64,000 nucleotides of DNA from a virus. The position numbers and the translations under genes were made by a program. Where the stretch lies: IMG/VR virus record IMGVR_UViG_3300042806_000062, positions 1 through 64,000 of that record, one strand, 5' to 3'. Numbering within the stretch: the first letter of the stretch is position 1; every line of letters begins with the position of its first letter. Shown piece after piece: positions 3,492 to 57,445 of the stretch. The notes beneath the pieces are model-generated. The model did not search any database and was not told the origin of the DNA. It saw only the letters and a program-made list of their open reading frames with translations.

Positions 3492-3674
3492 CTAGCATCC
3501 ACATATAACACAAATACATTGATTTCTTAAATTATTAACCCAAATTTCATATTCTTCATCTGTTATATTAAAGGGGGGATATGATTTTGATGAAATTTGA
3601 TTATGTATAAAACATTTTATTTCAATAGGTTCTCTATTTATACCCCTATTTATTTCAGCAGATGCACTAGTCAT
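3492..3674 (-). CDS. Small hypothetical protein with C-terminal Cys cluster (60 aa)
   Basis: Not recognised. The C-terminus ends CICVICGC. An AGGAG ribosome binding site lies 7 nt before the ATG, and TATAAT overlapping the previous stop codon could be a -10. The stop codon lies immediately before the Hsp20 remnant, so the gene may have been created or truncated by the same rearrangement. Confidence 0.5.
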   Translation of the reverse strand: MTSASAEINRGINREPIEIKCFIHNQISSKSYPPFNITDEEYEIWVNNLRNQCICVICGC

Positions 3675-3685
3675 ATATTCTCCTA

Positions 3686-4303
3686 TTATACTGGTTGATA
3701 TGTAAATTGTCCATAATACCTTTTAAACGTTCCACCACATGGATCTCCATAATTATCGTTATTTGCACCTATGCTTATACTTGTAGTTGGCATTCCTACT
3801 CCAACATTAGCATGACATCCACCATAACTAAAAGCACCACAACTGCCATTTGGTGTTCCATAACTTGAAAAATCTACTCTAGTAAATATAAAACCACTTG
3901 GTGCTGTAACTGTACCACCTTGATTTTCACTCATAGTCAAACAACTATATCCAACGTTTATGGATCTAACTATTAAAGAAAAGGCTCTAAATGATCCGCC
4001 GCCAGTTCCTATTGCTCCTACTGTAAAATTATATGTAGTACCAGCGTTATAGTCTGCTATTCCAGTAGGGGTACCACTTATTGTTCCATTTGCTGCGTTT
4101 AGGGATACCCCAGTTGGTAATGCTCCTTCGGAAATATAATAAGATGCTGCACCATCTGCTTGGACACTTGTGCTAAAAGATCTTGTTGTATATAGGGTTG
4201 TTCCACTTAATAATTGACCAGCATTAGTAACCCAAGATGGTATTGTTCCAGCAGATTTTCCGATTGTACCAAAATTTCCTGATAAAGTTGTAGTAAATGG
4301 CAT
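3686..4303 (-). CDS. Distal virion protein with Ig-like and SUEL-type lectin domains
   Basis: A 205-aa protein. Residues about 50-92 contain a putative-Ig (He_PIG) module with GALPTGVSL and GTISGTP. Residues about 115-203 resemble the SUEL/galactose-binding lectin domain: SSYGTPNGSCGAFSYGGCHA, later DNYGDPCGGTFKR, with the conserved Cys and Gly pattern. Such domains bind rhamnose or galactose, so a receptor-binding or particle-decorating role is likely. It follows another fibre-like gene (4311-4856) by 7 nt, with an AGGAG site. No signal peptide is seen, which fits a virion rather than a secreted protein. That it is in the virion is inferred. Confidence 0.75.
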   Translation of the reverse strand: MPFTTTLSGNFGTIGKSAGTIPSWVTNAGQLLSGTTLYTTRSFSTSVQADGAASYYISEGALPTGVSLNAANGTISGTPTGIADYNAGTTYNFTVGAIGTGGGSFRAFSLIVRSINVGYSCLTMSENQGGTVTAPSGFIFTRVDFSSYGTPNGSCGAFSYGGCHANVGVGMPTTSISIGANNDNYGDPCGGTFKRYYGQFTYQPV

Positions 4304-4310
4304 ATATCTC

Positions 4311-4856
4311 CTAAATATTTAAATTAGAGTTTGCAATTATTAATGTTGAACTGCTTGTTCTAAATACTGTAAAGTTAAATATATCTAATTTTCCAGCAGA
4401 ACTTGTTGGCGTTGGCGCACTTCCTCCAAGCCATCTAATTGTTTGAGAAACTCCATCTAACATAAAAATATTAGGAATCCGTCCTGTTGCACCTTGTGTC
4501 ACTACAACTGATACTGTTTGACTTCTTAAGTTTACATTTGGAACATTTGTTAAATTTAATGTAAAGTTTGCAGAAGGTGCAGTTGCTATATAAAATAATC
4601 CACCATCATTAAAATTTGCTGTTGCTGATCCAGATACTATAGATAGTTCCACTATCTTTTCTCTTATTTCTTGAGCATCCAATATTCCACTAATTTGAGT
4701 ATTTTCAAATAATGATGTTCCAGTGAAAGTTGGACTTGATATGGTTGAATATGTTGTAGAAGCACTTGATTGGGTTAAAAATACGCTTGTATCTGACGAT
4801 AAACGTGCACCATTAAAAGTAACGGTATTTGTGGAAGTGTCTACTATATAGGACAT
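4311..4856 (-). CDS. Tail-fibre-like virion protein (181 aa)
   Basis: A Ser/Thr/Asn-rich beta-type protein with the modular look of distal fibre proteins of aquatic phages: a PTFTGTSLF segment, an AQEIREKIV helix, then beta-strand-rich C-terminal repeats. No catalytic motif is present. There is no ribosome binding site; instead TATAAT ends exactly 6 nt before the ATG, so a leaderless mRNA is predicted. Adjacent to the lectin protein, it probably forms part of the same appendage. Confidence 0.65.
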   Translation of the reverse strand: MSYIVDTSTNTVTFNGARLSSDTSVFLTQSSASTTYSTISSPTFTGTSLFENTQISGILDAQEIREKIVELSIVSGSATANFNDGGLFYIATAPSANFTLNLTNVPNVNLRSQTVSVVVTQGATGRIPNIFMLDGVSQTIRWLGGSAPTPTSSAGKLDIFNFTVFRTSSSTLIIANSNLNI

Positions 4857-4862
4857 ATCTAA

Positions 4863-4871
4863 ATTATATCA
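4863..4871 (-). promoter_or_regulatory. Leaderless extended -10 promoter before 4311-4856
   Basis: On the minus strand TGATATAAT (hexamer 4868-4863) is followed by 6 nt and then ATG, placing the A of the start codon at +1. No -35 is evident and there is no ribosome binding site. Confidence 0.6.
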
Positions 4872-4894
4872 CTTATTCTAGCATAGATCCCTTT

Positions 4895-4936
4895 ATTTGG
4901 CAGGGTAATTATAATGTTATATCAGAGGTATTCTTT
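4895..4936 (-). repeat. Promoter-bearing repeat, copy B
   Basis: Second copy of the repeat described at 3398-3441. On the minus strand it reads CCTCTGATATAAC (extended -10; hexamer 4921-4916), preceded at 17 bp by TTGCAA, and followed by ATTATAATTACCCTGCCAAAT. Its CCTCTGA supplies the stop codon of the upstream methyltransferase gene. The leaderless promoter at 4863 lies just downstream, so the fibre genes may have two start sites. Confidence 0.6.
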
Positions 4937-5527
4937 ATTTGCAATTATGACTGCCATAGACTCTGGCTTAGCCCTATCTCCACGCCAGTAAACCTCAACA
5001 ACCATAGCATTATTACTTATATAAGCCTTTTCTTTTTCTGTTGCGTACTTAGATGTCCATCCAGCAGTCTTTATTTTATCTATCAATTCAATACTTGGCC
5101 TATCATCATTTATAATAAACTCTTCGCCATACCATGGGGCATGTAAATCTTCTATTATATACATTTTACTATGTTTAAATAATAAAGAAAAACTTGTCTC
5201 TATCATCTCAGTAGTATGACCACCGTCATCTAAGATAACATCATATAAACCAGTAACATTTTTTATCATTTGTTCTCTATTGGTTTGATCAACTATTCTT
5301 AAATCACATCCATTTACAATATCAAAATGTTTTATATCCCACCCTTCAACTACAGTATCTTTATTAAACCACTCTCTCCACGTTTTAATAGAATAGCCAG
5401 CCTGTATTCCTATCTCTAAAAATCTTTTAACTTTATCTTTATCTATATGTTTTTCATAAAAATCTAAATATTTATGATAGGTAGCCTTATCTGTATTATA
5501 TTTTAATCCTATGTCTTGTAATTTCAT
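4922..5527 (-). CDS. SAM-dependent methyltransferase (glycan O-methyltransferase type)
   Basis: A 201-aa class I methyltransferase. The SAM-binding motif I is LEIGIQAGYS (about 37-46), followed by the acidic loop GWDIKHFD and a DVILDDGGH motif at about 98-106 typical of the cephalosporin-hydroxylase/rhamnosyl O-methyltransferase group. Members of that group methylate sugars on antibiotics or surface polysaccharides. It is the last of six glycan-type genes (9495 to 4922) that overlap or abut, so sugar O-methylation is the likely role; the substrate is unknown. Confidence 0.75.
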   Translation of the reverse strand: MKLQDIGLKYNTDKATYHKYLDFYEKHIDKDKVKRFLEIGIQAGYSIKTWREWFNKDTVVEGWDIKHFDIVNGCDLRIVDQTNREQMIKNVTGLYDVILDDGGHTTEMIETSFSLLFKHSKMYIIEDLHAPWYGEEFIINDDRPSIELIDKIKTAGWTSKYATEKEKAYISNNAMVVEVYWRGDRAKPESMAVIIANKEYL

Positions 5528-6321
5528 ATATTTCTATCTTTAATTTGTCTAGACTCTACTGGTATTAACTGTCCTTTGTGTGAAGCATTAATATCTTTTC
5601 TTACCCAAGTCATACCAAATGGCTCAGATAGATTATTTTGTGCATCTCTTTGTGGAAGTCTTTCCGCTAAGGACTGAAAAGTTGGGTCATCGCTTAAGTT
5701 AAGATAAGCATTATGATACCAAGGTAGATCGTAGAAGGCTGGAGAGTTTACTAAAAGCATTCCAGCAGTTGTCCAATGCTCTTGAATCGGTGGATCTTGA
5801 CTTACAACCTTACCAGACAAACCATAATCTGGGACATTAACTCCAACCAGTGGCCTATCTACTTCTAACAATTTTTCTACAATATCAACATTTAAAGTTG
5901 TATCTGAGTCAACATATAATACTGCTTGATAGTTTACTACTCCTTGATTTAATTCTGTACAGTCTTCTCCCCAGTGGTGACCTGAAGTTATTCTTGATCT
6001 TTGAGCAAATTCTCTGATAAGGTTACGACCTGTTTCAATTCTTATCCATCTATTGTGTGAGGTTACCTTTGACTGCATATCGTTTATTGTATATGTCCAA
6101 TAGTCTCCATTAACTTCCTTTAATGCTGCAATTACAGAGTGAAATGGTTCTAATCCTCTTTCATCTAATTCAAATGCAGCAAACCATTTAGCATTAGGAA
6201 ACTTTTCTATAATTCTAACTCTATCTTCTATCCAAGTCATATGCTCTAATCTGTCACATTTCCAAGCAACAAGAGGAGTTCCTATTACAAAATGCTTTTC
6301 ATAATCAATTGGTTTTAACAT
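5524..6321 (-). CDS. Putative glycosyltransferase, GT-A-like (265 aa)
   Basis: The protein has a central VLYVDSDT segment (about 143-150), a DxD motif of the kind that binds the metal and nucleotide-sugar in GT-A enzymes, followed by a PLVGVNVPDYG strand and a TTAGMLLVNS segment resembling the acceptor side of the fold. There is no membrane helix, so it should be cytosolic. An AAAGGAT site lies before the ATG, and it overlaps its neighbours by 4 and 17 nt. Donor and acceptor are unknown. Confidence 0.65.
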   Translation of the reverse strand: MLKPIDYEKHFVIGTPLVAWKCDRLEHMTWIEDRVRIIEKFPNAKWFAAFELDERGLEPFHSVIAALKEVNGDYWTYTINDMQSKVTSHNRWIRIETGRNLIREFAQRSRITSGHHWGEDCTELNQGVVNYQAVLYVDSDTTLNVDIVEKLLEVDRPLVGVNVPDYGLSGKVVSQDPPIQEHWTTAGMLLVNSPAFYDLPWYHNAYLNLSDDPTFQSLAERLPQRDAQNNLSEPFGMTWVRKDINASHKGQLIPVESRQIKDRNI

Positions 6322-6772
6322 AGTTATCCTTTATTTCTTCTATATAGTCTGAACATATACCAAAGTATCCTAGATCTTTAATATACTTTGTACCCTGATT
6401 TTTTTCTGGTAATACAAGTATAGAGCAGTCAGAAATTTTTGGAGTTCCAGGGTATCCCCAAACAAATCCCTTGCTAGTCATAGTATAGTCATCCATATTA
6501 TGAAAGAAACAATGTAAATCATTTTCTACACAAGTTTCTAAAGACTTATAATCTTTACAGTGTATCCAAAGATTATCTTTTCTTTCTTTTAACCATTCTA
6601 AATCTATAAAATGATCTGGATCATCATGTCCTAAATATAATTGTCCAAGGTTAGTTCTTAAATCTATTTCTACTTCATACCCCGCAAAAATGGCTGCATC
6701 AATGTAGAAGGGGTTATTTTCATTTCTTGACACTGGACCATTTAAATTGCCACGATGGGATATGTATTTCAT
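6305..6772 (-). CDS. Glycerophosphodiester phosphodiesterase-like protein (155 aa)
   Basis: The N-terminus has the hallmark sequence of the GDPD/PLC-like barrel: ISHRGN at 4-9, ENNP at 18-21, YEVEIDLR at about 33-40 and LGHDDP at about 47-52, containing the catalytic His pair and acidic metal ligands. At 155 aa it is shorter than typical GDPDs (about 240), so the barrel may be minimal or incomplete. Within the glycan block it could hydrolyse or transfer a phosphodiester on a surface polymer; that is inference. Confidence 0.65.
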   Translation of the reverse strand: MKYISHRGNLNGPVSRNENNPFYIDAAIFAGYEVEIDLRTNLGQLYLGHDDPDHFIDLEWLKERKDNLWIHCKDYKSLETCVENDLHCFFHNMDDYTMTSKGFVWGYPGTPKISDCSILVLPEKNQGTKYIKDLGYFGICSDYIEEIKDNYVKTN

Positions 6773-7476
6773 TTTTCAGTCTGAACCCAAATCCATTGAC
6801 GATGGTTGTCTCCAGGACCAGTTGGTCTAATATCAGATTTATAATTTTTAAACCCTATCTTATTAATCAAATCATCTTTTAACTCTTCTTCATCAGTAAT
6901 GCTTACATCTGCATGACCATTTGTGCTTGCTGCTTCATAAACATTATCATAATATTTTGCAGTAGGAATTCCTTCTTTACCACCGTATCCCATTTGAAAA
7001 CAAAGTTTTCCACCTGGCTTTAAGACTCTATATGCTTCTTTTAATATATTAAATCTAATTTCATGTACACAAATATGTTGAAAGCAAATAACTGCAAACA
7101 TAACGTCATAAACATTATCTTCAATCATTGATAGATTATCTCCAGAGGTATGATATAAATTAGGAATATCAATATTGTTATATTCTAAATTTACCCTTGA
7201 CTTTTCTAGATTAATGTTAGATATATCTACTCCATCAATTCTTTTAAATCTATTATGAAACTTAACTAAATTTCTTCCTGGACCACACCCATAATCAAGG
7301 GCAATCATATCGGTTGTATCAAAGTCTTTAAAAAGGTATGTATCGTAATCTTTCCAGTCATTATGAGCGTCATAAGATCCAACAACTGGATCTTTAAATT
7401 GTAAACTCCATACAGCAGCATATTGATCATAATATTTATTTTGCATATTTAAATAATCTTGTTTATTTCTATTCAT
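6769..7476 (-). CDS. SAM-dependent methyltransferase (235 aa)
   Basis: Class I methyltransferase of the Methyltransf_11/25 type. Motif I is ALDYGCGPGRN (about 58-68), followed by DGVDIS for the SAM ribose, DVMFAVICFQHI as motif IV and an AYRVLKPGGKLCF motif typical of small-molecule methyltransferases. It overlaps both neighbours by 4 nt and probably acts on a sugar or lipid intermediate of the same pathway. A GGAG site lies 8 nt before the ATG. Confidence 0.8.
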   Translation of the reverse strand: MNRNKQDYLNMQNKYYDQYAAVWSLQFKDPVVGSYDAHNDWKDYDTYLFKDFDTTDMIALDYGCGPGRNLVKFHNRFKRIDGVDISNINLEKSRVNLEYNNIDIPNLYHTSGDNLSMIEDNVYDVMFAVICFQHICVHEIRFNILKEAYRVLKPGGKLCFQMGYGGKEGIPTAKYYDNVYEAASTNGHADVSITDEEELKDDLINKIGFKNYKSDIRPTGPGDNHRQWIWVQTEK

Positions 7477-8846
7477 TTGTTATTCTCCAAGTAGTAGTTT
7501 AAATCTTCAGGGGTTCCTATACCCCACATTTTTTCTATTTCTTTTACCCTTATCCTCTTACCATCTTCAATCGCTTGATTAAAAACAGGACAAACGTAAA
7601 ATTCATTATTAGTTCTTATATCTTTTTGTATCATATCTTCAGCATATTTTACATAATCTGATCCATGCTTCCAGTAATAAATTCCTACTGTTGCATTATC
7701 TGATATAGGATTCTTTTCTGCTACCTTTGATACAAAGCCGTTATCACCAATTTTGGCATAAGACCATTTAGGATGTGTAGCCTTAAAGGTTAGAATCCCA
7801 CCATCTATCTCGTCAGCATCAAAGGCGTAAAGACACTCATTACTATTCCATTCTACAATTTGATCAGAGTTTGCAATCAATAAAGGTTCATTGCTATTTA
7901 TATATTCTTTTGCCAATAAGGTTGTTACTGCAGCACCTTCTGTTATTCCATTTATTGTTACAATGTCGCATCCTGGCTTGATTAAGTTTAAGACTTGCTT
8001 TAAGTTATATTTATGAAAATGTTCTTCTTGAACTATAAACACATAATGAGCATCTATATTTAAATTATCTACTACGACTTGAATCATTGGCTTACCGTTG
8101 ACTTCAATTAATGGCTTAGGGAATGTATATCCTGCTTGTGCAAATCTAGATCCAGCACCAGCCATAGGAATTAAAACATTCATCTTTTCATTTTTCCAAG
8201 GCACTTCTTTTTTCCCTTTCATTTGTAACCTATCTATCATATCAAAGAACTTGTCCTTAAGTAGATCATCTGCGTCCTTAATGCCGTATAGGTGCCCTCC
8301 AGAGGCTATAGCGCCCTGTCTGCCAATATGGGAGTCTTCTACTATTACTGTATTTTGAGGCAAGGCATTTAATGCTGTCATACATTTCCAGTACATTTCA
8401 GGGTATGGTTTATGATGCTTTACATCTTCATTACTAACTATATATTCTATATATCCTAATACTCCAATGGCATTTAATGCTGTTATGATAGTTTCTCTAA
8501 TAGAATTACTTGCTACCGCAATTTTCCATCCATCTTTCTTTAACTGCTTTATTATAGATATTGCTGTTTTATTTTCTGGAAGTTTTTGTAATATATCTAT
8601 GGTCTGTCTTTGTTTTTCTTTCCATACCTGATCGTGATACTCTACTGGAAGTCCTTTTAATTCTGTTAACATTTTTAATTTCATAGTAGTTCCAAGACCA
8701 TCATATTTTGACAAATGTTCTTCTCTAGTAACAACAAACTTAGGGTTAATCTTTATAAGAGCACTATTTAGTGCGTCATAGTGAACATCTCTAGAGTCAA
8801 TTAGAACTCCATCAAGATCGAATATAACTAATTTATTATCGTACAT
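7473..8846 (-). CDS. HAD phosphatase fused to sugar nucleotidyltransferase
   Basis: A two-domain 457-aa protein. Residues about 4-200 form a HAD-superfamily hydrolase: FDLDGVLIDS carries the nucleophile Asp and acid/base Asp, then VASNS, KPYPEMY and VIVEDSHIG give motifs II-IV. Residues about 222-457 form a GT-A-fold nucleotidyltransferase: the signature is LIPMAGAGSRF, with the substrate Lys in TFPKPLIEV and metal-binding LIANSDQ. The fusion could dephosphorylate and then nucleotidylate a sugar, yielding a donor for the neighbouring glycosyltransferases. ATG at 8846 is chosen because the HAD motif begins 3 residues later; the longer frame to 8906 would overlap the upstream gene by 71 nt. Confidence 0.85.
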   Translation of the reverse strand: MYDNKLVIFDLDGVLIDSRDVHYDALNSALIKINPKFVVTREEHLSKYDGLGTTMKLKMLTELKGLPVEYHDQVWKEKQRQTIDILQKLPENKTAISIIKQLKKDGWKIAVASNSIRETIITALNAIGVLGYIEYIVSNEDVKHHKPYPEMYWKCMTALNALPQNTVIVEDSHIGRQGAIASGGHLYGIKDADDLLKDKFFDMIDRLQMKGKKEVPWKNEKMNVLIPMAGAGSRFAQAGYTFPKPLIEVNGKPMIQVVVDNLNIDAHYVFIVQEEHFHKYNLKQVLNLIKPGCDIVTINGITEGAAVTTLLAKEYINSNEPLLIANSDQIVEWNSNECLYAFDADEIDGGILTFKATHPKWSYAKIGDNGFVSKVAEKNPISDNATVGIYYWKHGSDYVKYAEDMIQKDIRTNNEFYVCPVFNQAIEDGKRIRVKEIEKMWGIGTPEDLNYYLENNK

Positions 8847-9495
8847 TGGCTGGCTTCGGTCCCGCATGTCTATGCCATTTGTTATGTCTAACAATAGCAC
8901 CTCCATTGCATTTCATTACATACTTATTACGAACCCTCATTGACCACTCAACATCTTCTTCTTCGTCCCAACCACGACTTTCATCAAGAGGCTCTTCAAT
9001 CATTACGTGTTTTTTAACAATAAAGAATCCACCTGAGATATACATATACTCTGTTTGAGACCAATCGTCATAATTCAAAGACCAGGCTCTTCCATAACCA
9101 GGCTTGTCCCACAAAGACCAATCCATAGGATTACGCATCCCTGTAATTAGAAACTGAGGACAGGAACATATATCCCAATCAGTTCCAAATTTTTTAAAAC
9201 TTTCATACCAATTTTGATCAAAAACGTGGTAGTCATGCATTAAAACTATATTTTCATACTTAGATTCTTTAACTAAAACATTCTTCTTTCTTGTGATCCA
9301 CATTGGTTTTTGACTTTCATCAAAGTCTACCTTACGAATATCTGGTCCATCTATACCTTCACTATCTCCACCACCAACAAATAGTATTTCATATTCTGGA
9401 ATACTTAAATCACGAATGCTTTTTATAATGTGCAATAGTCTATCTTTATCTTGATATGTTGTTATTATTCCAAATGTCCATTGGATATCATTCAT
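8836..9495 (-). CDS. Glycosyltransferase family 2-like protein (219 aa)
   Basis: The protein starts with the GT2-like strand FGIITTYQDKDRL, then IPEYEILFVGGG. The usual DxD is represented by MHDYHVFD, followed by GGFFIVKK and the late acidic motif DEEEDVEWSMR, matching the ED motif of the catalytic base. It is the first gene of the glycan block, starting inside the end of ftsZ with an AGGA site before ATG at 9495; a TTG two codons upstream is less likely. Substrate unknown. Confidence 0.8.
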   Translation of the reverse strand: MNDIQWTFGIITTYQDKDRLLHIIKSIRDLSIPEYEILFVGGGDSEGIDGPDIRKVDFDESQKPMWITRKKNVLVKESKYENIVLMHDYHVFDQNWYESFKKFGTDWDICSCPQFLITGMRNPMDWSLWDKPGYGRAWSLNYDDWSQTEYMYISGGFFIVKKHVMIEEPLDESRGWDEEEDVEWSMRVRNKYVMKCNGGAIVRHNKWHRHAGPKPANVR

Positions 9496-10417
9496 TGTCA
9501 AATCCTGTTGCTATAACTGTTACACGAATTTGATCTTCTAAAGTTTCATCTACTACTGTACCAAAAATTATATTTGCATCTTCATGAGCATTATCAGATA
9601 CTGCAGTTGTTATTGTTGAAACTTCAGCCATTGTGATATTAGAGGATGATGCAATTGAAAGAAGAATACCTTTTGCACCCTTTAAATTAACATCTAAAAT
9701 AGGGCTAGTCGTTGCTGATTCTGCTGCTTGATCTGCTCTATTCTTTCCTTCTCCAAATCCAAGACCCATGAATGCTGTTCCTGCGTTCTCCATTACACGT
9801 CTTACGTCTGCAAAGTCCACGTTAATAAACCCAGGGGTAGTAATTAAATCAGTAATAGAGGCAATACCTTTTAATAAAATAGTATCTACTTCTTCAAATG
9901 CTTCTGTCATGGTTACTTTTGGATCTAATAATGTTAATAAGTTTTCATTTGGTATTACTATAATAGTATCTACATTTTCTTTTAATTTTTCTATACCCGC
10001 CAAGGCTTTATTCATTCTTTGTTTGCCCTCAAAAAAGAATGGAGTAGTAACAATACCTATTGTTAATGCACCAACATCTTTTGCTGCTCTTGCAACTACT
10101 GGAGCACTTCCAGTACCAGTTCCCCCACCCATTCCTGCTGTAATAAATACCATGTCTGAACCAAAGACTATATCTTTTATATCTTCTACATTTTCTTCTG
10201 CTGCAAGTCTTCCTTGTTCTGGATCAGCGCCTGCACCAAGTCCTTTAGTAACATTACGACCAATGTCTAATTTTATATTTGCTGTACTTGTAACTAATGC
10301 TTGAGCATCTGTATTTAATGCAACAAACTCAACTCCAGATAGTCCCATATCTGACATACGATTGACAGCGTTAACACCACCACCACCGCATCCTATGATT
10401 TTAATATCTGCTAACAT
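9488..10417 (-). CDS. ftsZ: FtsZ-family tubulin-like GTPase
   Basis: A 309-aa protein clearly of the bacterial FtsZ family rather than the divergent phage tubulin PhuZ. It has the N-terminal IKIIGCGGGGVNAVNRM strand, the tubulin signature GGGTGTGSAP at 97-106, and the catalytic T7 loop NVDFADV (199-205) needed for GTP hydrolysis upon polymerisation. It ends at RVTVIATGFD, where the FtsZ core normally ends, so the flexible linker and C-terminal peptide that bind FtsA, SepF and ZipA are absent. It should therefore polymerise or co-polymerise but not anchor to the host divisome. An AAAAGG site precedes the ATG. The role (blocking host division, or a phage filament) is inference. Confidence 0.97.
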   Translation of the reverse strand: MLADIKIIGCGGGGVNAVNRMSDMGLSGVEFVALNTDAQALVTSTANIKLDIGRNVTKGLGAGADPEQGRLAAEENVEDIKDIVFGSDMVFITAGMGGGTGTGSAPVVARAAKDVGALTIGIVTTPFFFEGKQRMNKALAGIEKLKENVDTIIVIPNENLLTLLDPKVTMTEAFEEVDTILLKGIASITDLITTPGFINVDFADVRRVMENAGTAFMGLGFGEGKNRADQAAESATTSPILDVNLKGAKGILLSIASSSNITMAEVSTITTAVSDNAHEDANIIFGTVVDETLEDQIRVTVIATGFDNE

Positions 10418-10420
10418 GTA

Positions 10421-10819
10421 TTAAACCTTTTTATTTCTTTTTGCTAGCAGTTGGTCAAAATCTTTAACTTTTGTATCGCCAAGATATCCCCAAGCATATC
10501 CTTGATCAATCATTGCAAGGTTTAGGTTTACATCATCAACAAATAACCATCCAAGAATTCTTCCATATTTTTCTGATGAATCCATTTTTTCAGTTTTGAT
10601 AATTACAGTTTTTGCATGTGCCAATGCTTTTTTAAGCCATTCTTTTGATTCTAATCCAAGTTTCTTTTCATATAGATCTTTAGTTCTAGATTCTGGGGTA
10701 TCTATGCCAGCCAGTCTAACTCTTGATGAAAATGATATATCAAACCCAAGATCAATTTCAACATCAATCGTATCTCCATCTACTACGGCTGTTACTTTTT
10801 TTACATGATATTCATACAT
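10421..10819 (-). CDS. Thermonuclease (SNase-like, 132 aa)
   Basis: Staphylococcal nuclease domain: VVDGDTID with the calcium-binding Asp, RLAGIDTPES with catalytic Arg and Asp, and EKYGRILGWLF with the second Arg. There is no signal peptide, so it acts inside the cell, perhaps on host DNA or RNA. The open frame extends to a GTG at 10843, but TATAAT lies exactly 6 nt before the ATG at 10819, which also begins the domain properly (MYEYHVKK); a leaderless start at 10819 is preferred. Confidence 0.88.
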   Translation of the reverse strand: MYEYHVKKVTAVVDGDTIDVEIDLGFDISFSSRVRLAGIDTPESRTKDLYEKKLGLESKEWLKKALAHAKTVIIKTEKMDSSEKYGRILGWLFVDDVNLNLAMIDQGYAWGYLGDTKVKDFDQLLAKRNKKV

Positions 10820-10825
10820 GTTATT

Positions 10826-10831
10826 ATTATA
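10826..10831 (-). promoter_or_regulatory. -10 box of a probable leaderless promoter (thermonuclease)
   Basis: TATAAT (10831-10826, minus strand) overlaps the stop codon of the protease gene and is followed by AATAAC and ATG. No -35 is evident; AAGG lies 13 nt before the ATG, too far for a normal ribosome binding site. Confidence 0.5.
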
Positions 10832-11333
10832 CCTTACTTCCACAGGGTATATTCCTAATATTTACTAGGTCTTCTTCTGTTAATACCTGATTTTTTGACT
10901 CGTAAGGATACATCAAGGAGTTTGGATCATCGCTATGATCAAGTCCTATTCCATGCAATATTTCATGAAGCAGAACATTTTTATTTTTCGTAAACATAGA
11001 TATATAAACATTGTCTATTCTTGCTTCATTATAACTATCCATTAATATAGTTCTTCCTAATATATTAGAATCCTTAGATCCTAAATAATATATTTCCATA
11101 TGAGGTTGCTTTTTCATAGACTTTTTCCACTTTCTAAAAGTAAAATTAGATATAGTCTCTATGTATCTAATGGTAGGGATTATTTCATCTTTTTTATAGT
11201 CATCATAGACATAAAATAGTTTACAATCTCTCCATGTTATTTTACCGTGCTTATTTTCTATATATGTGTCAGCAAAAGATATTGAGGGTAGAAATGATAT
11301 TACTAACGATAGTATTATTATTTTAAGTTTCAC
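10827..11333 (-). CDS. Secreted matrixin-like zinc metalloprotease
   Basis: A 168-aa preprotein. Residues 1-21 form a signal peptide (Lys-containing start, hydrophobic core, cleavage likely after SFA). The zinc site HEILHGIGLDH (123-133) matches the metzincin HExxHxxGxxH, and SLMYP (139-143) is the Met-turn, so all catalytic features are present. The domain is about 145 aa, close to a minimal matrixin core without a propeptide. It should cleave proteins outside the cytoplasm; envelope proteins of the host or of neighbouring cells are possible targets. The start is GTG with GGGG about 7 nt before it. Confidence 0.88.
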   Translation of the reverse strand: MKLKIIILSLVISFLPSISFADTYIENKHGKITWRDCKLFYVYDDYKKDEIIPTIRYIETISNFTFRKWKKSMKKQPHMEIYYLGSKDSNILGRTILMDSYNEARIDNVYISMFTKNKNVLLHEILHGIGLDHSDDPNSLMYPYESKNQVLTEEDLVNIRNIPCGSKV

Positions 11334-11533
11334 TAGTTACCCCTATATTGTCTTTCTTCATTTAAATGTTTTAACATTTTTTGAGCATATTCTTTACCTC
11401 TTAAATCATCCATAAATAATACTATTTCTTCTGCCATTTCAAATGGTTTTATATGATACTTAACATCTTGTAAATGTTCTATAAATTCTGCAAGTTCATT
11501 AACACGATAGTCTTTATGTTTACGAATCTGCAC
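11333..11533 (-). CDS. Small helical hypothetical protein (66 aa)
   Basis: Not recognised. Charged and fully helical in appearance, with no signal or membrane segment. It overlaps the 88-aa basic gene by 14 nt and the protease gene by one base, so it is co-transcribed with the protease. Confidence 0.6.
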   Translation of the reverse strand: MQIRKHKDYRVNELAEFIEHLQDVKYHIKPFEMAEEIVLFMDDLRGKEYAQKMLKHLNEERQYRGN

Positions 11534-11786: not shown

Positions 11787-11801
11787 TACATTTCTCCATT
11801 C

Positions 11802-12086
11802 TCATACCTTTATACCCTTTTTTAATAATTTATATTTACTGTATGTCATAACACTAACCTTTATAATATCACTATTTTTATCTAAATAAAATTTTGAATC
11901 AGTTGTTAAAAGCACAATAGAACTTTTATCTTTTAATAAAATAACTATTGCATATTTTTCTTTTTCTTCTTGTAATTTATTTAAAGAATTTGTTTTTAAG
12001 TCTTTGTCTAAGTATAAACTGTTTTCTTGTGCAAATGATGGAAAACTAATTAAAGATAAAAAAAGTGTTAATGCTATTTTTTTCAT
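11802..12086 (-). CDS. Small secreted protein (94 aa)
   Basis: The first 19 residues are a classical signal peptide (MKKIALTLFLSLISF then PSFAQ, cleavage likely after SFA). The mature part is about 75 residues, Lys/Ser/Leu-rich, with no recognised motif and no Cys. It lies close to the second secreted protein (10827-11333), so the two may act together outside the membrane. Confidence 0.65.
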   Translation of the reverse strand: MKKIALTLFLSLISFPSFAQENSLYLDKDLKTNSLNKLQEEKEKYAIVILLKDKSSIVLLTTDSKFYLDKNSDIIKVSVMTYSKYKLLKKGIKV

Positions 12087-12585: not shown

Positions 12586-12870
12586 TTAATTTGCTTTCTT
12601 ATCTACTGAGTTAAATGCATTATTGATTTCATCGATGCTTAGTCTTCCATCATCAATGAATCCTCGTGCTAGTTTTTCAACTACTGTAGCAACACCTAGA
12701 GTTCCTGCAAGAATTATTGCACTCATAGTATCTATACCAATAATTGCACCAGCACCAATAACTCCAAGTCCATTGGCTGCAAATACAGCGATTATTCTAA
12801 GTAGAATATTTTTAATACCGCTAACTGCTCCCATTGCCTTTTCGTCATCTAGTTTTGTTTCTTTTGCCAT
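12586..12870 (-). CDS. Holin-like membrane protein (94 aa)
   Basis: Two hydrophobic helices (about 21-46 and 51-70) rich in Gly and Ala are followed by a charged C-terminal tail (DDGRLSIDEINNAF), matching small phage membrane proteins usually called holins in actinophages. The start is ATG at 12870, preceded by GGAG and just after the upstream stop; an earlier in-frame start at 12909 lies inside that gene and is unlikely. Its location two genes past the endolysin supports a role in timing lysis. Confidence 0.7.
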   Translation of the reverse strand: MAKETKLDDEKAMGAVSGIKNILLRIIAVFAANGLGVIGAGAIIGIDTMSAIILAGTLGVATVVEKLARGFIDDGRLSIDEINNAFNSVDKKAN

Positions 12871-12872
12871 TA

Positions 12873-13355
12873 TTATTCTCCTTCCCTTATTCGTATAGTT
12901 ATTAGCCATACAAACAAGACAGTTATAATTGCATACCCTACGATAGTTTTTGCACTACCCTCGAGTACTAGCCATGCTGCGAACATACCTAGTAATGTCC
13001 ACAATTGGTTTAATGTTTCTACAAATGCTTCTACTAGCCATGCCCATATAAATTTAACTACTGTCCATACTTTATTTAGTATCCATAGAATTAATTTCCA
13101 GGTATTAATAAATACCCATTTAATTGCATTCCAGATACTTGTAATAATCCAGGTAATAACTTGAGTACCTTCATTAACTACCCCAACTATTCCTTTATAT
13201 ATACCTTTAAGTATCTTCCAAATAAGATTAAGAACATATTTAATTACCGCCATAACCTTGATTAGAATAAACTTAACTAGGTTTATGGGTAACATAACTA
13301 CGAACTTAACTGCTTTGAAGATAAACTTAAAAGGTTTTAGTATTGCCTTTATCAT
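12873..13355 (-). CDS. Trp/Lys-rich membrane-active protein (160 aa)
   Basis: Family not recognised. Residues 1-130 consist of repeated short hydrophobic or amphipathic segments spaced by Lys and rich in Trp ([35 protein letters not shown]), followed by a clear transmembrane helix near 138-153 and a charged C-terminus (RIREGE). The pattern resembles in-plane amphipathic helices that disrupt membranes. Between the endolysin side and the holin-like gene, with a GGAGG site, it may be a second holin or lysis effector. Confidence 0.7.
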
Positions 13356-14752
13356 GTTATCCTCCTTATTTCTGCTCTTGCATTCATCTGCACTATGCTT
13401 GAAGACATTGCTACAGATCCTATTAATTGACCCACAATAACTGTTGCAACAACAACTGTTTGTGATTCCTCTCTTTCTTCTTCTGTCATATCAGCACCCA
13501 ATTGTCCAAGTGCTTCTAACACTTGTCCTGGATCTGATACAAACTCTCCTAATAAGGCCCCAGGGTCTGACAGTTGCTCAAATACAACTGCAACACCTGC
13601 TTCTAATTCAACACCTTCACGGTATTCAATTATTTGATTTTCATCTAATTGTTCTAAAAATTCTAAAGTTTGCTCATCATTTAATCCTTCAATTAAATCT
13701 GCTACTGGCATTGCTTCATCTACTTCATAATTTTCAATTAATAATTCTGCAATGTTTTCTAGTTGTTCATCTGTAATTTCTTCTTCATTAACCAATAGTT
13801 CTTCAATTGCATTATCCATTTCTTCTTCAACTGCTATAATTTCTTCTATAGGAGTTGGTTCTGGTGAAGGTTCTAAAATTATTTCTATTTCCTCTTGCAC
13901 TTCTTCTGGCACTTCTATTTCTGGTTCGTCAGTTGGTATCACAACAGGTTCTTCAGTTGGACCTAGATCAATTGGATCAGGATTTGGAATCTGAGTTTCT
14001 GTAGGACTTGGCTCTGGACTAGGCTCTACTGTTTCTGTAGGCGTAGGAGTAGGGCTAGGGCTTTCTGTAGGTGTCTCTGTAGGTGTTGGTGTAGGACTTG
14101 GAGTTTCGGTAGGTGTTGGGGTAGGGCTTGGTGTAGCACCACCAGTTGACTCATAGATATATCTTGTATATTCATTTGAACCATTTAATCCAAATACAGT
14201 TCCTACTCTCCATCCACCGCAAATATTTCCAGTTCCACAATGACCAGTATGCCAAGATAAACGAAGTGAGCCATCATCTAAATTTCCACCCCATGCAGCA
14301 TAAACATCTGCAGAATTTTGGTTAATAGTGCTATTAGGAGCAAATCCTAAAGAACCCATGCCTGTATTAAAATACCAATAGGAAGCGTTTTCTAATATAG
14401 TTTGATTAGACATATTTGGTTGAATGGTAAATACCATTTCTCTTTTACCAGCAGCAAGGAGCATTAAGTTTGAGTTGTTAGTTAGTCCACCAGCGTATAG
14501 AATATATTCTTGATCACAAGCAGTGGTTATATTTGATAATAAATCAGTACCTCCATAAGTTCCAGACCAACACAGAGCCCATCCACCAGATTCAACTACA
14601 GATTTATCAACATTCTGTTGTGGTCCAGATGGATAGTAAGATGGTGGGTCTTGAATAGAACTTGCGGGGGTAAAAGAAAAGAACAATGCTAATAACATTG
14701 GTGTCAAAAGCATTGCTCTTATTTTAAGTCTTTTGTTTTTAACCTTTCTCAC
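13352..14752 (-). CDS. Secreted/anchored Pro-Thr-rich surface protein (466 aa)
   Basis: A signal peptide (residues about 1-31, basic start then [18 protein letters not shown]) leads into an uncharacterised Cys-containing domain (about 50-205, four Cys, Gly/Asn/Trp-rich), then a PSPTPTPTE-type repeat linker (about 208-262), a long acidic region (about 263-400) and a hydrophobic helix near 425-450 with a basic end, suggesting an anchored protein with an extracellular domain. The product should sit on the host surface or in its envelope. It lies between the endolysin and two membrane proteins. The start codon is GTG. Function unknown. Confidence 0.75.
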
Positions 14753-14808: not shown

Positions 14809-15198
14809 TTATGAGTTAAGAATTGTTGTTGGATCTATATCTTTTCCTGCTGACCAACGAATGTTGTCACGCATTTCAAAATGTAAGTGTGGACCAGAAG
14901 AGTTTCCTGTATTTCCACTTAGTCCAATTGCTTGTCCTTTAGTTACCTTGTCTCCAGGCTTTACATCTAGTTTAGAAAGATGTGCATAAATTACCCATCC
15001 ACCTTCAACTTTTTGTACTGCTTGAGTTCCGTATGATTTGCCCCAGTTGGCAGGTTCAATTTTTCCGTCTGCAACAGCAAGAACAGGTGTTCCTGTTTTT
15101 ACAGCAAAATCAACTCCTGTGTGATAACCCTTGGACCACATCTTGCCAAGTTTTTTGTAAGGTGTTGTAATTTTTCCATCTTTGATTGGTAATCCCAT
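14809..15198 (-). CDS. Endolysin, M23 zinc metallopeptidase (129 aa)
   Basis: A compact LytM-type domain: HTGVD (26-30) gives the first zinc His and Asp, and GPHLHFE near 101-107 the HxH pair, with the intervening AVADGKI strand of the fold. It cleaves peptide cross-links of peptidoglycan. There is no separate cell-wall-binding domain and no signal peptide, so a holin is required for access. An AGGAG site precedes the ATG, and a terminator/promoter junction lies upstream (15211-15248). Confidence 0.92.
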   Translation of the reverse strand: MGLPIKDGKITTPYKKLGKMWSKGYHTGVDFAVKTGTPVLAVADGKIEPANWGKSYGTQAVQKVEGGWVIYAHLSKLDVKPGDKVTKGQAIGLSGNTGNSSGPHLHFEMRDNIRWSAGKDIDPTTILNS

Positions 15199-15711: not shown

Positions 15712-15957
15712 TTATTTATCTTTGTATGTTACATCTAGAATAGGGTCTAAAGAAACCCTTGCTCCTAGTTTTTCCAAAGCACCCTTTACCTTTTGTAGGT
15801 ATTGAATGCACTGAAATCTTTCTGCGTCAGTGTAATGTCTCCACTGGCTCTCATAGAATTGTATCGTAAGAAAGGCATCATAGTCAAGTATGTCTATTTT
15901 AAATTCTTTTGGAATCTTGAATGTTCTTACTGCTCTTTTCATTTGATCTGTATACAT
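15712..15957 (-). CDS. Hypothetical protein downstream of WhiB (81 aa)
   Basis: Not recognised; helical, soluble. It starts one base inside the WhiB stop region and ends 24 nt before ssb, so the three genes form one unit. Confidence 0.65.
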   Translation of the reverse strand: MYTDQMKRAVRTFKIPKEFKIDILDYDAFLTIQFYESQWRHYTDAERFQCIQYLQKVKGALEKLGARVSLDPILDVTYKDK

Positions 15958-16238
15958 TATGAACTCTCTATTACTGCACCAGACCAGGTATTAAACCAGT
16001 CTTCTTTTGTTTTATGTGAGTTAAATTCTTTAGATATTTTGCCACCTTCAAAATATATGCCTCCCCATACACCCCACTCTTGATTACTAACAGCATAAGC
16101 CAAACACTGTCTTTGTGCTGGACATGTAACACATAAAGAGTCAACAGTTTTTGCAATATTTTTATTTTCTTCATACTTATCAAAAAATAAATTTGTATCC
16201 ATATTTAGGCATAAAGCCTTATCGTTAAACTTGTACAT
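15957..16238 (-). CDS. WhiB-family iron-sulfur transcription regulator (93 aa)
   Basis: Four Cys with WhiB spacing: C10, then CVTC (36-39) and C45, which would hold a [4Fe-4S] cluster, followed by the diagnostic WGVWGG turn at 55-60. The C-terminal basic stretch that follows the turn in many WhiB proteins is weak here. WhiB proteins are confined to actinobacteria and their phages and bind the primary sigma factor to redirect transcription, so this protein is the best host indicator in the window. It overlaps the upstream 73-aa gene by 14 nt. Confidence 0.93.
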   Translation of the reverse strand: MYKFNDKALCLNMDTNLFFDKYEENKNIAKTVDSLCVTCPAQRQCLAYAVSNQEWGVWGGIYFEGGKISKEFNSHKTKEDWFNTWSGAVIESS

Positions 16239-18426: not shown

Positions 18427-18792
18427 CTACTCTTTCATATCTTTTTCACGTTTTTGTAACAGATTTTCTAAAAAGAATCTTTCTTCTTCAGGCAGGGTAT
18501 ACATAACAGACCTTGTATATTCTATATCTTTAGGCATAACCATTGGAGTACCGTCTTTATCAAAGGTCAAGTCTATTATGTCTTTTGACCATAGTCTAAA
18601 TGCTAATTCATTGATCATCTTAAAATGCTCTTCAAATAAGTCTGGCATTATTTCTTGGCACTTAGGTGTTAGGTTATATATAAATTGATTGCTAATAGAG
18701 TCATACCCTCTAATTTCTAATGCTCCCATCTCTATTAACTGCAAAATAATGTTTGAGAGATCTTCTTCATTTACATACTCTTCATCAGACAA
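18427..18792 (-). CDS. Hypothetical protein adjacent to large terminase (121 aa)
   Basis: Not recognised; acidic and helical, with a winged-helix-like N-terminal half (LSNIILQLIEMGALEIRGYD). It overlaps the end of terL by 8 nt, implying coupled translation and a possible packaging-related role, by position only. Confidence 0.6.
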   Translation of the reverse strand: MSDEEYVNEEDLSNIILQLIEMGALEIRGYDSISNQFIYNLTPKCQEIMPDLFEEHFKMINELAFRLWSKDIIDLTFDKDGTPMVMPKDIEYTRSVMYTLPEEERFFLENLLQKREKDMKE

Positions 18793-20560
18793 GTCGGTAC
18801 CCTCCGTTCCAATTTAGGGAACTACCTTTAATCTTGTCTGGGAAAAAATCATCTGCATTGTCTGAGTCAGTTCCGCCCTGAGACCAAGTATGTATATCTA
18901 TTTCTTTAACTCTATTTCTTTCGGTATTTGATATAGAGTTATAAACTGATCCACACATAGCGTCAGCCAAATCTTTAGACTTCTTTCTAGGATGGTCTAC
19001 ACGATTTCCTATAATTCTAAGTTCTAATAGTTCTTCTAATAATATATCTATATGAGGTGCTATCAGTCTTTCTTCATAAAAAAGCATAGTTAAGTCTTCA
19101 TAATGTTTCTTTGCTACTGATAAGGTTTCAGTCTTTATTCCTACCTGTTTTAATTCTTGTTGTATATCAAAAGATTGCCACCTATCAAAAGTAACTAATC
19201 CTAAATTAAAACCCTGCCTTCTTAAATCAATAATCCAATTTTTTACCTCACTAAGATCAACTGGTCCTTCTCTAAGTGGCTCCCACCAAGCAATTGCGTC
19301 TACAACAACAAATGGAACAATTTGTTCATAATCATTAAATGATTGAACACTTACCCACTTGTCTACGTGACTAATTGCAACTGCACATTTATCATGCTTT
19401 TGTGCAAGATCTGCATGAACGTAATAAACTGTATCTGGGTTTGGTTTAAAGTTTATATCGAATCTTCTGGCATTATCTAAAGGATTTCTATTTGACAAAC
19501 CTTTTTCTATTTTTTCTCTAGACTTAAAAAAAGCATCTGATGAAGTTGTTGGCATACAAGCAAAACGCATAAGTGCATCTGCTGGATCTGTAAAAAATGC
19601 TAACTTAAAATCTTCTATCTTTCTGGTTGGATTCATTTCCCATGTTGGCCTACGTAAGGCAAATACTCCAGGGTACTTATAAGACTCAATGTGATCTTCT
19701 TCCCACTCTACCTCAAACTTATTGTTTATATCTTCTTCACTTAGTGTTGGATTAATTGTAAATTGATGCTTTCTAATTATTGTTTGTTTGTCTGCAACAA
19801 CATCTTCATATCTTTTAGAAATAAAGTCACCTTTAAATCTTGGAAACGACAGTAGTATAACTTTACCAAAGTCTGGAAAGCGTGAGTCTACAGACCCTCT
19901 AAAGGCCTTGTAAAGGTTATCTGAGGTCTTTCCTTGATCATTACCACCAGCACTCTCCATTGCAAAACCTGAAATTTCATCAAGAACTGCAAGCATTAAG
20001 TTTAATCCTTCAGCAGACTCTCTTTCGGAATGTCCAGAATAAACTGTAATAGATTTATTAAACTCTATGTTATCTACTTTTGCTTCATACTTTCCAGCAA
20101 ACCAAGGAGATCCTTCAATCTTTGATTTAAAACCTTTAAAGAATACGTTCTTTGCTTGCTGAGCGTTTACCGCCACGTTAATTAAATCTATAGCATCGTT
20201 AGATGGTTTACCAAAATATCTTGATGGATCTTTTAAACATAATAGTTTATATACAATATAAGCACAACCAATAGTGGAAGTATGATCTTTACCACTACCC
20301 TTTCCACACATAAGAATAACTTCTTGCTTAGTATATTTTTTGTAATGTTCTTTTCCTTCTTCTTTACCCAACCATCTTTGAACATCTTCTTCTTTATATA
20401 TCTGACTCATACACTCTACGAGGGTATATTGATAGTCTGATAACTCTGGTTGATTTAAATAGTCTTTACTCATAACAAATGTTTTAACATCTACTGGTAG
20501 TTCTAAAAAAGGACTTTCATCTAGTGCTTCTATAAAGTCACTAAAATCAATCGTTGTCAA
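18785..20560 (-). CDS. terL: Terminase large subunit
   Basis: A 591-aa packaging ATPase/nuclease. The ATPase domain has a Walker A-like CGKGSGKD at 85-92 and Walker B LMLAVLDEIS at 188-197 with catalytic Glu. The C-terminal RNase H-like nuclease region begins with VYYVHADLAQKHDKCAVA, whose Asp is the first metal ligand, and continues with VTFDRWQS and a late KDLADAMCG Asp. It docks on the portal (57501-59060) to pump and cut DNA. It overlaps the 173-aa upstream gene by 14 nt. Confidence 0.92.
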   Translation of the reverse strand: MTTIDFSDFIEALDESPFLELPVDVKTFVMSKDYLNQPELSDYQYTLVECMSQIYKEEDVQRWLGKEEGKEHYKKYTKQEVILMCGKGSGKDHTSTIGCAYIVYKLLCLKDPSRYFGKPSNDAIDLINVAVNAQQAKNVFFKGFKSKIEGSPWFAGKYEAKVDNIEFNKSITVYSGHSERESAEGLNLMLAVLDEISGFAMESAGGNDQGKTSDNLYKAFRGSVDSRFPDFGKVILLSFPRFKGDFISKRYEDVVADKQTIIRKHQFTINPTLSEEDINNKFEVEWEEDHIESYKYPGVFALRRPTWEMNPTRKIEDFKLAFFTDPADALMRFACMPTTSSDAFFKSREKIEKGLSNRNPLDNARRFDINFKPNPDTVYYVHADLAQKHDKCAVAISHVDKWVSVQSFNDYEQIVPFVVVDAIAWWEPLREGPVDLSEVKNWIIDLRRQGFNLGLVTFDRWQSFDIQQELKQVGIKTETLSVAKKHYEDLTMLFYEERLIAPHIDILLEELLELRIIGNRVDHPRKKSKDLADAMCGSVYNSISNTERNRVKEIDIHTWSQGGTDSDNADDFFPDKIKGSSLNWNGGYRLV

Positions 20561-55768: not shown

Positions 55769-57445
55769 TTAACGATAGAGGTCAGCGGTATTGAGGAAAC
55801 GCCCGCCCCACATCGATCCTTTTTTTATTTTATTTCCCTGCACGACCCCGCCGAGGTCGCCAGACTTACGGATAGCGGTGTCATCTTCAACTGCATCGAC
55901 ACGCTTTCCAAACTCTTCTACATTGCTTTTTACTGTTGTAACTTCCTCTGTTACTTTTGCAACGCTCTTTGTTAATTCGGCAAGTTGTTCATTAATTGAT
56001 TTTACAGTTGCCGCTAAATCTCCAACTGCTGCGGTAACGGACTTGCTAATTTCTTCTACAGAAACTTTAACTGTTTGTACAGCCTTTGCCAAGTCATCAT
56101 CTTTGCTTTCTACAGCAGGAGTTTCGGCTTTTTCAACATCTGCTGGTGCGTCTTCTGCTGGAGCATCTTCTGCAGGAGCAACTGGTGCTACTACTTCTTC
56201 TACTGGAGCATCTTCTGCTACTGCTTCTGCTGGTGCATCTGCTGGAGCATCTGAATCAGACTTAACGATTTCGTCTACAACGACTAATTCGTCTTCTACA
56301 ACTTCTGTTTTTTCAATTTGAACATCTTCTGCAACTACTGTTGCTTCTTGTTCTGTTTTTGCCATATCATTTACCTCCTTATTAGAATTATCAGAAACTT
56401 GTTCTGATTTCATTGTAACTCTTCTCAGAGTTTTCATTTTATGTCCTACAATTGTGTCAGTTGGTTTACCGTCACGGTAGAGCCTAATAGCAACTGCTGG
56501 ATCTTCTGGAGTTCCTGTAATAGTAAAAGAACTATTTGGAACTTTTATTTTTCCATTGCGAACGACCCTAGTTACTTTTCCTCTTGCAGTACCACCGCTT
56601 GAGTTCCATGAAACCATGTCGCCAACTTTAACATTTGACGCTTTGTCCATATCTTCTTCGTCATCTTTCTTTTTTTTCTTAGGTTTAATTGTTGTAGGAT
56701 TTTTAGTAGGAACATTTTCATTAGTCATAGTTCCATTGTATGCTTTAATTAAATTCTTAATTACTTCGTTTTTTTCGTTATCAGTTGTTTCTACAAAACC
56801 TATTAAGGTTTCTCCTGATCTAATATCTTCTTCTTTAGATAGTCTTACAATGTTATTTTCTTTAGACCAGTATACATTTTCAAGTGACATTTTTGTCATT
56901 ATACCGTCAAAAGTATTTTGTCCATCTTCTGCTTTTTGAATAGATACAATATTAGCAAATTGATTTGCAGGATTATCTACAAGCGATAATTCGTGGAGTT
57001 CGTAATCTTTAATAACCCTAATGGATTTATCCATTTCTGGGTCGTATTGGTCTTCCGTATCTTTGATGCTGCCACCAATAGAAAAACCAGAAAGAGTGCC
57101 ATCAAGAACTTTTTCCCAAGTATCTTGAGCACCTTTAGAAATATATGCATCTACGTACACCCCATTATAAAACTTATCTTTATCTTTATCATAAAATTTA
57201 TCTGACTTAAATGACATTACCCTACCCACAGCCACTGGCATGTGCATCTCACGTAAATTTCCACGGAACCTTTCAAAAGCCTTTATACTTACATCAGTAG
57301 GGACAATGTCTGACTGCTTGTCAACATTGTCAAGGGTGGCAAACCCAGAAACGGTTCGCTTCTCTTTATCGATTTTAGCAATTGGCATAGATAACTTAAT
57401 AGAGTTATCTTCTGAGTGCCAAAATGCTTTATGCAAATTAGTCAT
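55769..57445 (-). CDS. Prohead protease fused to scaffold (558 aa)
   Basis: Residues about 15-175 are an HK97-type prohead protease: LREMHMP (catalytic His), DGTLSGFSIGGS (nucleophile Ser) and YELHELSLVDNPAN. After a Lys/Asp-rich linker (about 240-270) and a small beta domain (about 270-340), residues about 365-480 are Ala/Glu/Pro-rich repeats (APAEDAPAED) and about 470-535 a coiled-coil, as in scaffolds. The protease should cleave the scaffold off during capsid maturation. The C-terminus is basic. Confidence 0.9.
   Translation of the reverse strand: MTNLHKAFWHSEDNSIKLSMPIAKIDKEKRTVSGFATLDNVDKQSDIVPTDVSIKAFERFRGNLREMHMPVAVGRVMSFKSDKFYDKDKDKFYNGVYVDAYISKGAQDTWEKVLDGTLSGFSIGGSIKDTEDQYDPEMDKSIRVIKDYELHELSLVDNPANQFANIVSIQKAEDGQNTFDGIMTKMSLENVYWSKENNIVRLSKEEDIRSGETLIGFVETTDNEKNEVIKNLIKAYNGTMTNENVPTKNPTTIKPKKKKKDDEEDMDKASNVKVGDMVSWNSSGGTARGKVTRVVRNGKIKVPNSSFTITGTPEDPAVAIRLYRDGKPTDTIVGHKMKTLRRVTMKSEQVSDNSNKEVNDMAKTEQEATVVAEDVQIEKTEVVEDELVVVDEIVKSDSDAPADAPAEAVAEDAPVEEVVAPVAPAEDAPAEDAPADVEKAETPAVESKDDDLAKAVQTVKVSVEEISKSVTAAVGDLAATVKSINEQLAELTKSVAKVTEEVTTVKSNVEEFGKRVDAVEDDTAIRKSGDLGGVVQGNKIKKGSMWGGRFLNTADLYR

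Follow-up and report, generated by a model that had tools for sequence, protein, structure and literature searches.

Phage proteases are usually regarded as head-assembly enzymes. In a stretch of 64,000 nucleotides (hereafter the window), which covers a virus record of 65,938 bases almost completely, a preliminary description made from the letters alone had pointed to an exported zinc protease, which raises the question of whether this enzyme is genuine and what a phage would do with it.

The locus encodes a predicted exported matrixin-like metalloprotease

The protease gene, the motifs of its product and the surrounding genes are listed in Table 1. The open reading frame (ORF) starts with GTG in the window, ATG being the start codon in four of five relatives (described below), and its product begins with a Sec-type signal peptide, MKLKIIILSLVISFLPSISFA, which has a predicted cut before Asp22 and neither an anchor nor a lipobox. 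By a crude rule, such a hydrophobic N-terminal segment is found in 6 of the 75 minus-strand ORFs of the window, among which the protease ranks top. The consensus HExxHxxGxxH followed by S/T is present as HEILHGIGLDHS, together with SLMYP; both are kept in all relatives, and the zinc ligands and the glutamate are also invariant in an alignment of 28 viral matrixins. The Pfam Matrixin profile (PF00413) matched the protease with an E-value of 1.5e-8 and 35.1 bits, covering profile positions 104-156 of 159. Since this score exceeds the gathering cut-off of 24 bits and since all five relatives keep the motifs, these are not there by chance. The best sequence matches among solved structures were fragilysin and the catalytic domains of matrix metalloproteinases (MMPs). 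The ORF, signal peptide and two motifs from which an exported zinc protease had been predicted were thus all confirmed, and we conclude that the protein is, by prediction, a genuine exported matrixin-like enzyme of the M10A/PF00413 type, which would carry out zinc-dependent proteolysis.

Table 1. Coordinates of the protease gene, its motifs and the genes discussed in the text
Feature	Position	Strand	Basis
Predicted exported matrixin-like metalloprotease gene, 168 aa	10827..11333	-	PF00413 match, five relatives, dN/dS
Predicted signal peptide, residues 1-21, predicted cleavage between SFA and D	11271..11333	-	sequence; kept in all relatives
Zinc-binding motif HEILHGIGLDH, residues 123-133	10935..10967	-	sequence; ligands and Glu invariant in relatives
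Met-turn SLMYP, residues 139-143	10905..10919	-	sequence; invariant in relatives
SNase-like nuclease gene; overlaps protease end; right border of optional insertion	10421..10843	-	PF00565, 8e-17
66-aa upstream gene; stop overlaps protease start (TAGTG); left border of optional insertion	11333..11533	-	sequence
Second small ORF for an exported protein of 94 aa; lies in a variable slot of its own	11802..12086	-	predicted export
Holin-like small membrane protein (tentative)	12586..12909	-	phrog_443 holin, E 7e-4; phrog_26427 (labelled nuclease), 5e-23
Third protein that is probably exported or anchored; has a Pro/Thr-rich linker; candidate substrate	13352..14752	-	signal-like N-terminus
M23 metallo-endopeptidase, probable endolysin, no signal peptide	14809..15198	-	phrog_7767, 1.7e-30, and several endolysin families

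With the common PF00413 matrixins (MMP catalytic domains, karilysin), the protease shares the HExxHxxGxxHS motif, the Met-turn, the order of its elements and an active site that superposes. Compared with MMPs, however, it is shorter and its N-terminal half is diverged and aligns poorly. It has no counterpart of the structural-zinc histidines, which are a trait of animal MMPs rather than of PF00413 as a whole, there being a single histidine (H78) between Trp69 and HExxH. The cysteine-switch propeptide of animal MMPs is missing too: there is no PRCGxPD, and the stretch from the signal peptide to the domain leaves no room for it. Besides the catalytic domain, no binding or targeting domain was found in the protease.

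A structural model from six near-identical sequences had a pLDDT of 33, while the 28-sequence alignment gave a better model of the catalytic part only, reliable over about residues 115-162. This part superposes on MMP-7 (1.8 Å over 49 columns), and the elements of the model (helix 52-72, strands, helix 118-128, Met-turn, helix 153-161) follow the metzincin order. In this comparison with M10 peptidases, which had been proposed earlier, the fit is that of the active-site part; for the whole domain, the low-confidence model aligned more loosely with MMP domains, over 107-113 residues and with Z scores of 4-5, in a range (below 8) that can be unspecific.

The protease gene is optional cargo under purifying selection

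The protease was found in five further contigs (L002-L006), which judging by their names come from five other metagenomes, at 83-100% identity. The signal peptide, zinc ligands, Glu124 and Met-turn are kept in every copy, and the loss of HExxH in close relatives, which had been named as an observation that would speak against a protease, was seen in none of the five. Pairwise dN/dS values, with the window allele as reference, were about 0.12-0.17, showing that the gene is under purifying selection. In the L006 protease, residues 85-112 form a block far more diverged than the remainder, which may reflect recombination.

The protease is missing from L069 and L070, two closely related syntenic phages that were retrieved with the neighbouring FtsZ: at the empty site, the upstream gene is followed directly by the SNase gene. 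This clean absence indicates that the protease is optional cargo, which supports its placement in a phage accessory region. In the window, AAGGTATAA forms the end of the protease, but in L069 and L070 it ends the upstream gene, whose C-terminus differs between the protease-bearing and protease-less states. The protease has therefore been acquired or lost as one discrete unit.

The preliminary description had also linked the protease with a second exported protein encoded in the same cluster, and had suggested checking whether relatives always carry both genes. They do not. The 94-aa ORF is not adjacent to the protease and occupies a separate slot, flanked by a zinc-ribbon gene and a gene for a basic protein of 88 aa (11787-12083, minus strand). 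This slot is empty in L003, L004 and L005, which all bear the protease, and holds other genes in L069 and L070; the sole other copy of the ORF that we found is in the near-identical L002. There is therefore no constant pair, and we rejected the pairing on this independent occurrence. Database searches with the 94-aa protein gave no convincing match. The preliminary description had passed over a further protein that is probably exported or anchored, the product of 13352-14752.

Host and gene neighbourhood

The window encodes a portal, a head maturation protease, a tape measure, a tail spike-like protein and a DNA polymerase. The head maturation protease gene lies at 55769-57445, beside the portal and capsid genes, and its product resembles those of Streptomyces and Rhodococcus phages. 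A WhiB-like gene is found at 15957-16238, and whiB serves as an actinophage marker (PMC10202952). Based on this gene and on the likeness of the head protease, the host is probably an actinobacterium. A genome scan with the FtsZ of the window gave no host signal, and one genome scan, sensitive to close relatives only, revealed no bacterial relative of the protease. From the numbers of the source metagenomes, we take the setting to be, probably, a lake.

A tightly packed run of genes, overlapping or separated by less than about 90 bases, leads from the probable M23 endolysin gene via the holin-like gene past the protease, and no terminator-like site was found after the M23 gene on the coding strand; the protease may thus be co-transcribed with this run. 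As the run also includes FtsZ, nuclease and sugar genes, the neighbourhood is weak evidence for a role in lysis.

Several other observations were made in this region. The phage FtsZ (9488-10417, minus strand) matches the TIGR00065 equivalog with 390 bits and ends directly after the FtsZ_C domain, so that the C-terminal tail, to which partner proteins bind, is missing; without this tail, the phage FtsZ could disturb the division of the host. It is 93-97% identical in most related phages and 78% identical in L006, and its best database matches are bacterial-type FtsZ proteins (50-58%). Positions 3500-9500 hold a block of sugar-nucleotide, glycosyltransferase and methyltransferase-like genes, which in L003, L069 and L070 is swapped for a different set, partly on the opposite strand. 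Positions 1-914 of L004 match the gene at 18785-20560, which lies several kb off in the window, reflecting either a rearrangement or a misassembly.

Other viral contigs encode matrixin-like proteins

Scanning viral contigs with a strict motif (HExxHxxGxxHxxDxxxxMYP) yielded 58 stretches, of which five are the protease relatives described above; the others represent about 50 further viral contigs, some of them near-duplicates of one another. Many of these matrixins have a signal-like N-terminus, including a group of about 140-180 aa from GC-rich contigs, and 8 of the 10 that were scanned passed the Pfam Matrixin cut-off, with the other two just below it. Some of the contigs carry tape measure, endolysin, Sak4 or structural genes, showing that at least those are phages. 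An annotated matrixin of Maribacter phage Colly_1 was among the best matches in a viral structure library. Exported matrixins, as predicted from these sequences, are thus not unique to this phage. To call an exported phage metzincin unusual, as the preliminary description did, holds in part only, given these some 50 contigs and the published secreted metzincins of listerial prophages (PMC8235301).

The other viral matrixins share the motif in phage genomes, but likeness to the window protease is restricted to the catalytic part and their gene surroundings are different and varied. No bias towards lysis genes was seen near them, a weak result because gene calling is crude in GC-rich contigs. 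Twelve GC-rich contigs (L013, L016, L021, L029, L031, L032, L046, L048, L054, L056, L060 and L063) encode small matrixin-like proteins of about 140-210 aa, most with a signal-like N-terminus.

In INPHARED, no bona fide phage record matches the protease, and three other viral matrixins used as queries, two of them from the GC-rich set, gave no match. One apparent hit, L007 (CAKLQH020000026.1, 'Acinetobacter phage MD-2021a'), was rejected as a fragment of a bacterial chromosome with grpE, dnaK, purK and purE; this record is a trap for phage gene searches.

What the exported protease may do for the phage

The closest described counterpart is Mtz of Listeria (LMRG_00713), a phage-associated secreted metzincin encoded downstream of the holin and lysin genes in prophages. 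Together with its partner Tim, which it cleaves, Mtz raises sensitivity to phage-mediated lysis, including that of neighbouring cells (PMC8235301). Compared by description, both are accessory, phage-associated metzincins, secreted or predicted to be so, with an SPI signal peptide, encoded near a holin and a lysin; this setting is found in the window too, with a weak holin call. However, Mtz is always paired with Tim while the window protease has no constant partner, no adjacent and constant second secreted gene being found beside it among the relatives; the Met-turn is AIMLD in Mtz and SLMYP here (PMC8235301), and the window belongs to a probable actinophage rather than to Listeria.

By this analogy, we tentatively favour the reading that the protease is a late exported helper that would cut envelope proteins and ease lysis or release, and consider it a real possibility that falls short of probable. 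Made late, alongside the lysis genes, the protease would be exported by the host through Sec and lose its signal peptide; having no propeptide, it would be active upon release and would cut one or more host envelope or cell-surface proteins, so that lysis by the endolysin and the release of virions proceed more efficiently. Of these steps, the least certain are the target and the benefit to lysis. This reading is consistent with the matrixin profile, the kept motifs and signal peptide, the dN/dS values, the fit to MMP-7, the gene run, the empty site and the Mtz precedent; our confidence in it is modest because of the missing constant partner and of the missing lysis bias near other viral matrixins.

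The main rival, possible though doubtful, is that the protease strips the infected cell and its debris of receptor or other surface proteins, so that released virions are not trapped and superinfection is excluded. It draws on the same evidence about export and the enzyme as the lysis helper, and nothing in the data separates the two; that the gene is optional among close phages would fit a value that depends on the host strain and its surface, but the window shows no association of the protease with tail or receptor-binding genes. Next comes the idea that the protease trims the product of 13352-14752 in its Pro/Thr-rich linker. Both proteins are predicted to be exported from the same gene run and the cleavage of Tim by Mtz is a published analogue (PMC8235301), yet L069 and L070 keep a homologue of this gene without the protease, albeit one whose N-terminal part is different, the C-terminal part being about 91% identical; we hold such processing to be unlikely.

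Less likely still is a role outside the host, in which the protease, once released or after lysis, would act on cells nearby, on grazers or on extracellular protein. The signal peptide predicts a soluble secreted protein and the effects of Mtz-Tim do reach neighbouring cells (PMC8235301), but no domain besides the catalytic one would direct the protease to a target and, in our judgement, the benefit to a phage would be doubtful in dilute lake water. A virion or head assembly protease, although the commonest kind of phage protease, is highly improbable here: the window has a separate one beside its portal and capsid genes, while the matrixin bears a signal peptide, is missing in close relatives and lies far from the structural genes, thus showing none of the marks of a head maturation protease (a gene grouped with those for portal and capsid, conservation in relatives, no export).

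As some close phages carry the gene and others lack it, the effect of the protease could be tested by comparing them once a host is cultured. More broadly, small exported matrixins may be recurrent, repeatedly acquired extracellular effectors, present in this phage group and in many other viral contigs, which would alter the surface of infected cells and of their neighbours with no need of a partner protein, a speculative view of which we are rather doubtful. Still, an optional exported metzincin that is under selection in a probable actinophage, together with dozens of viral matrixins in unrelated contigs, suggests that phages have repeatedly recruited secreted proteases, which would act outside the cytoplasm.
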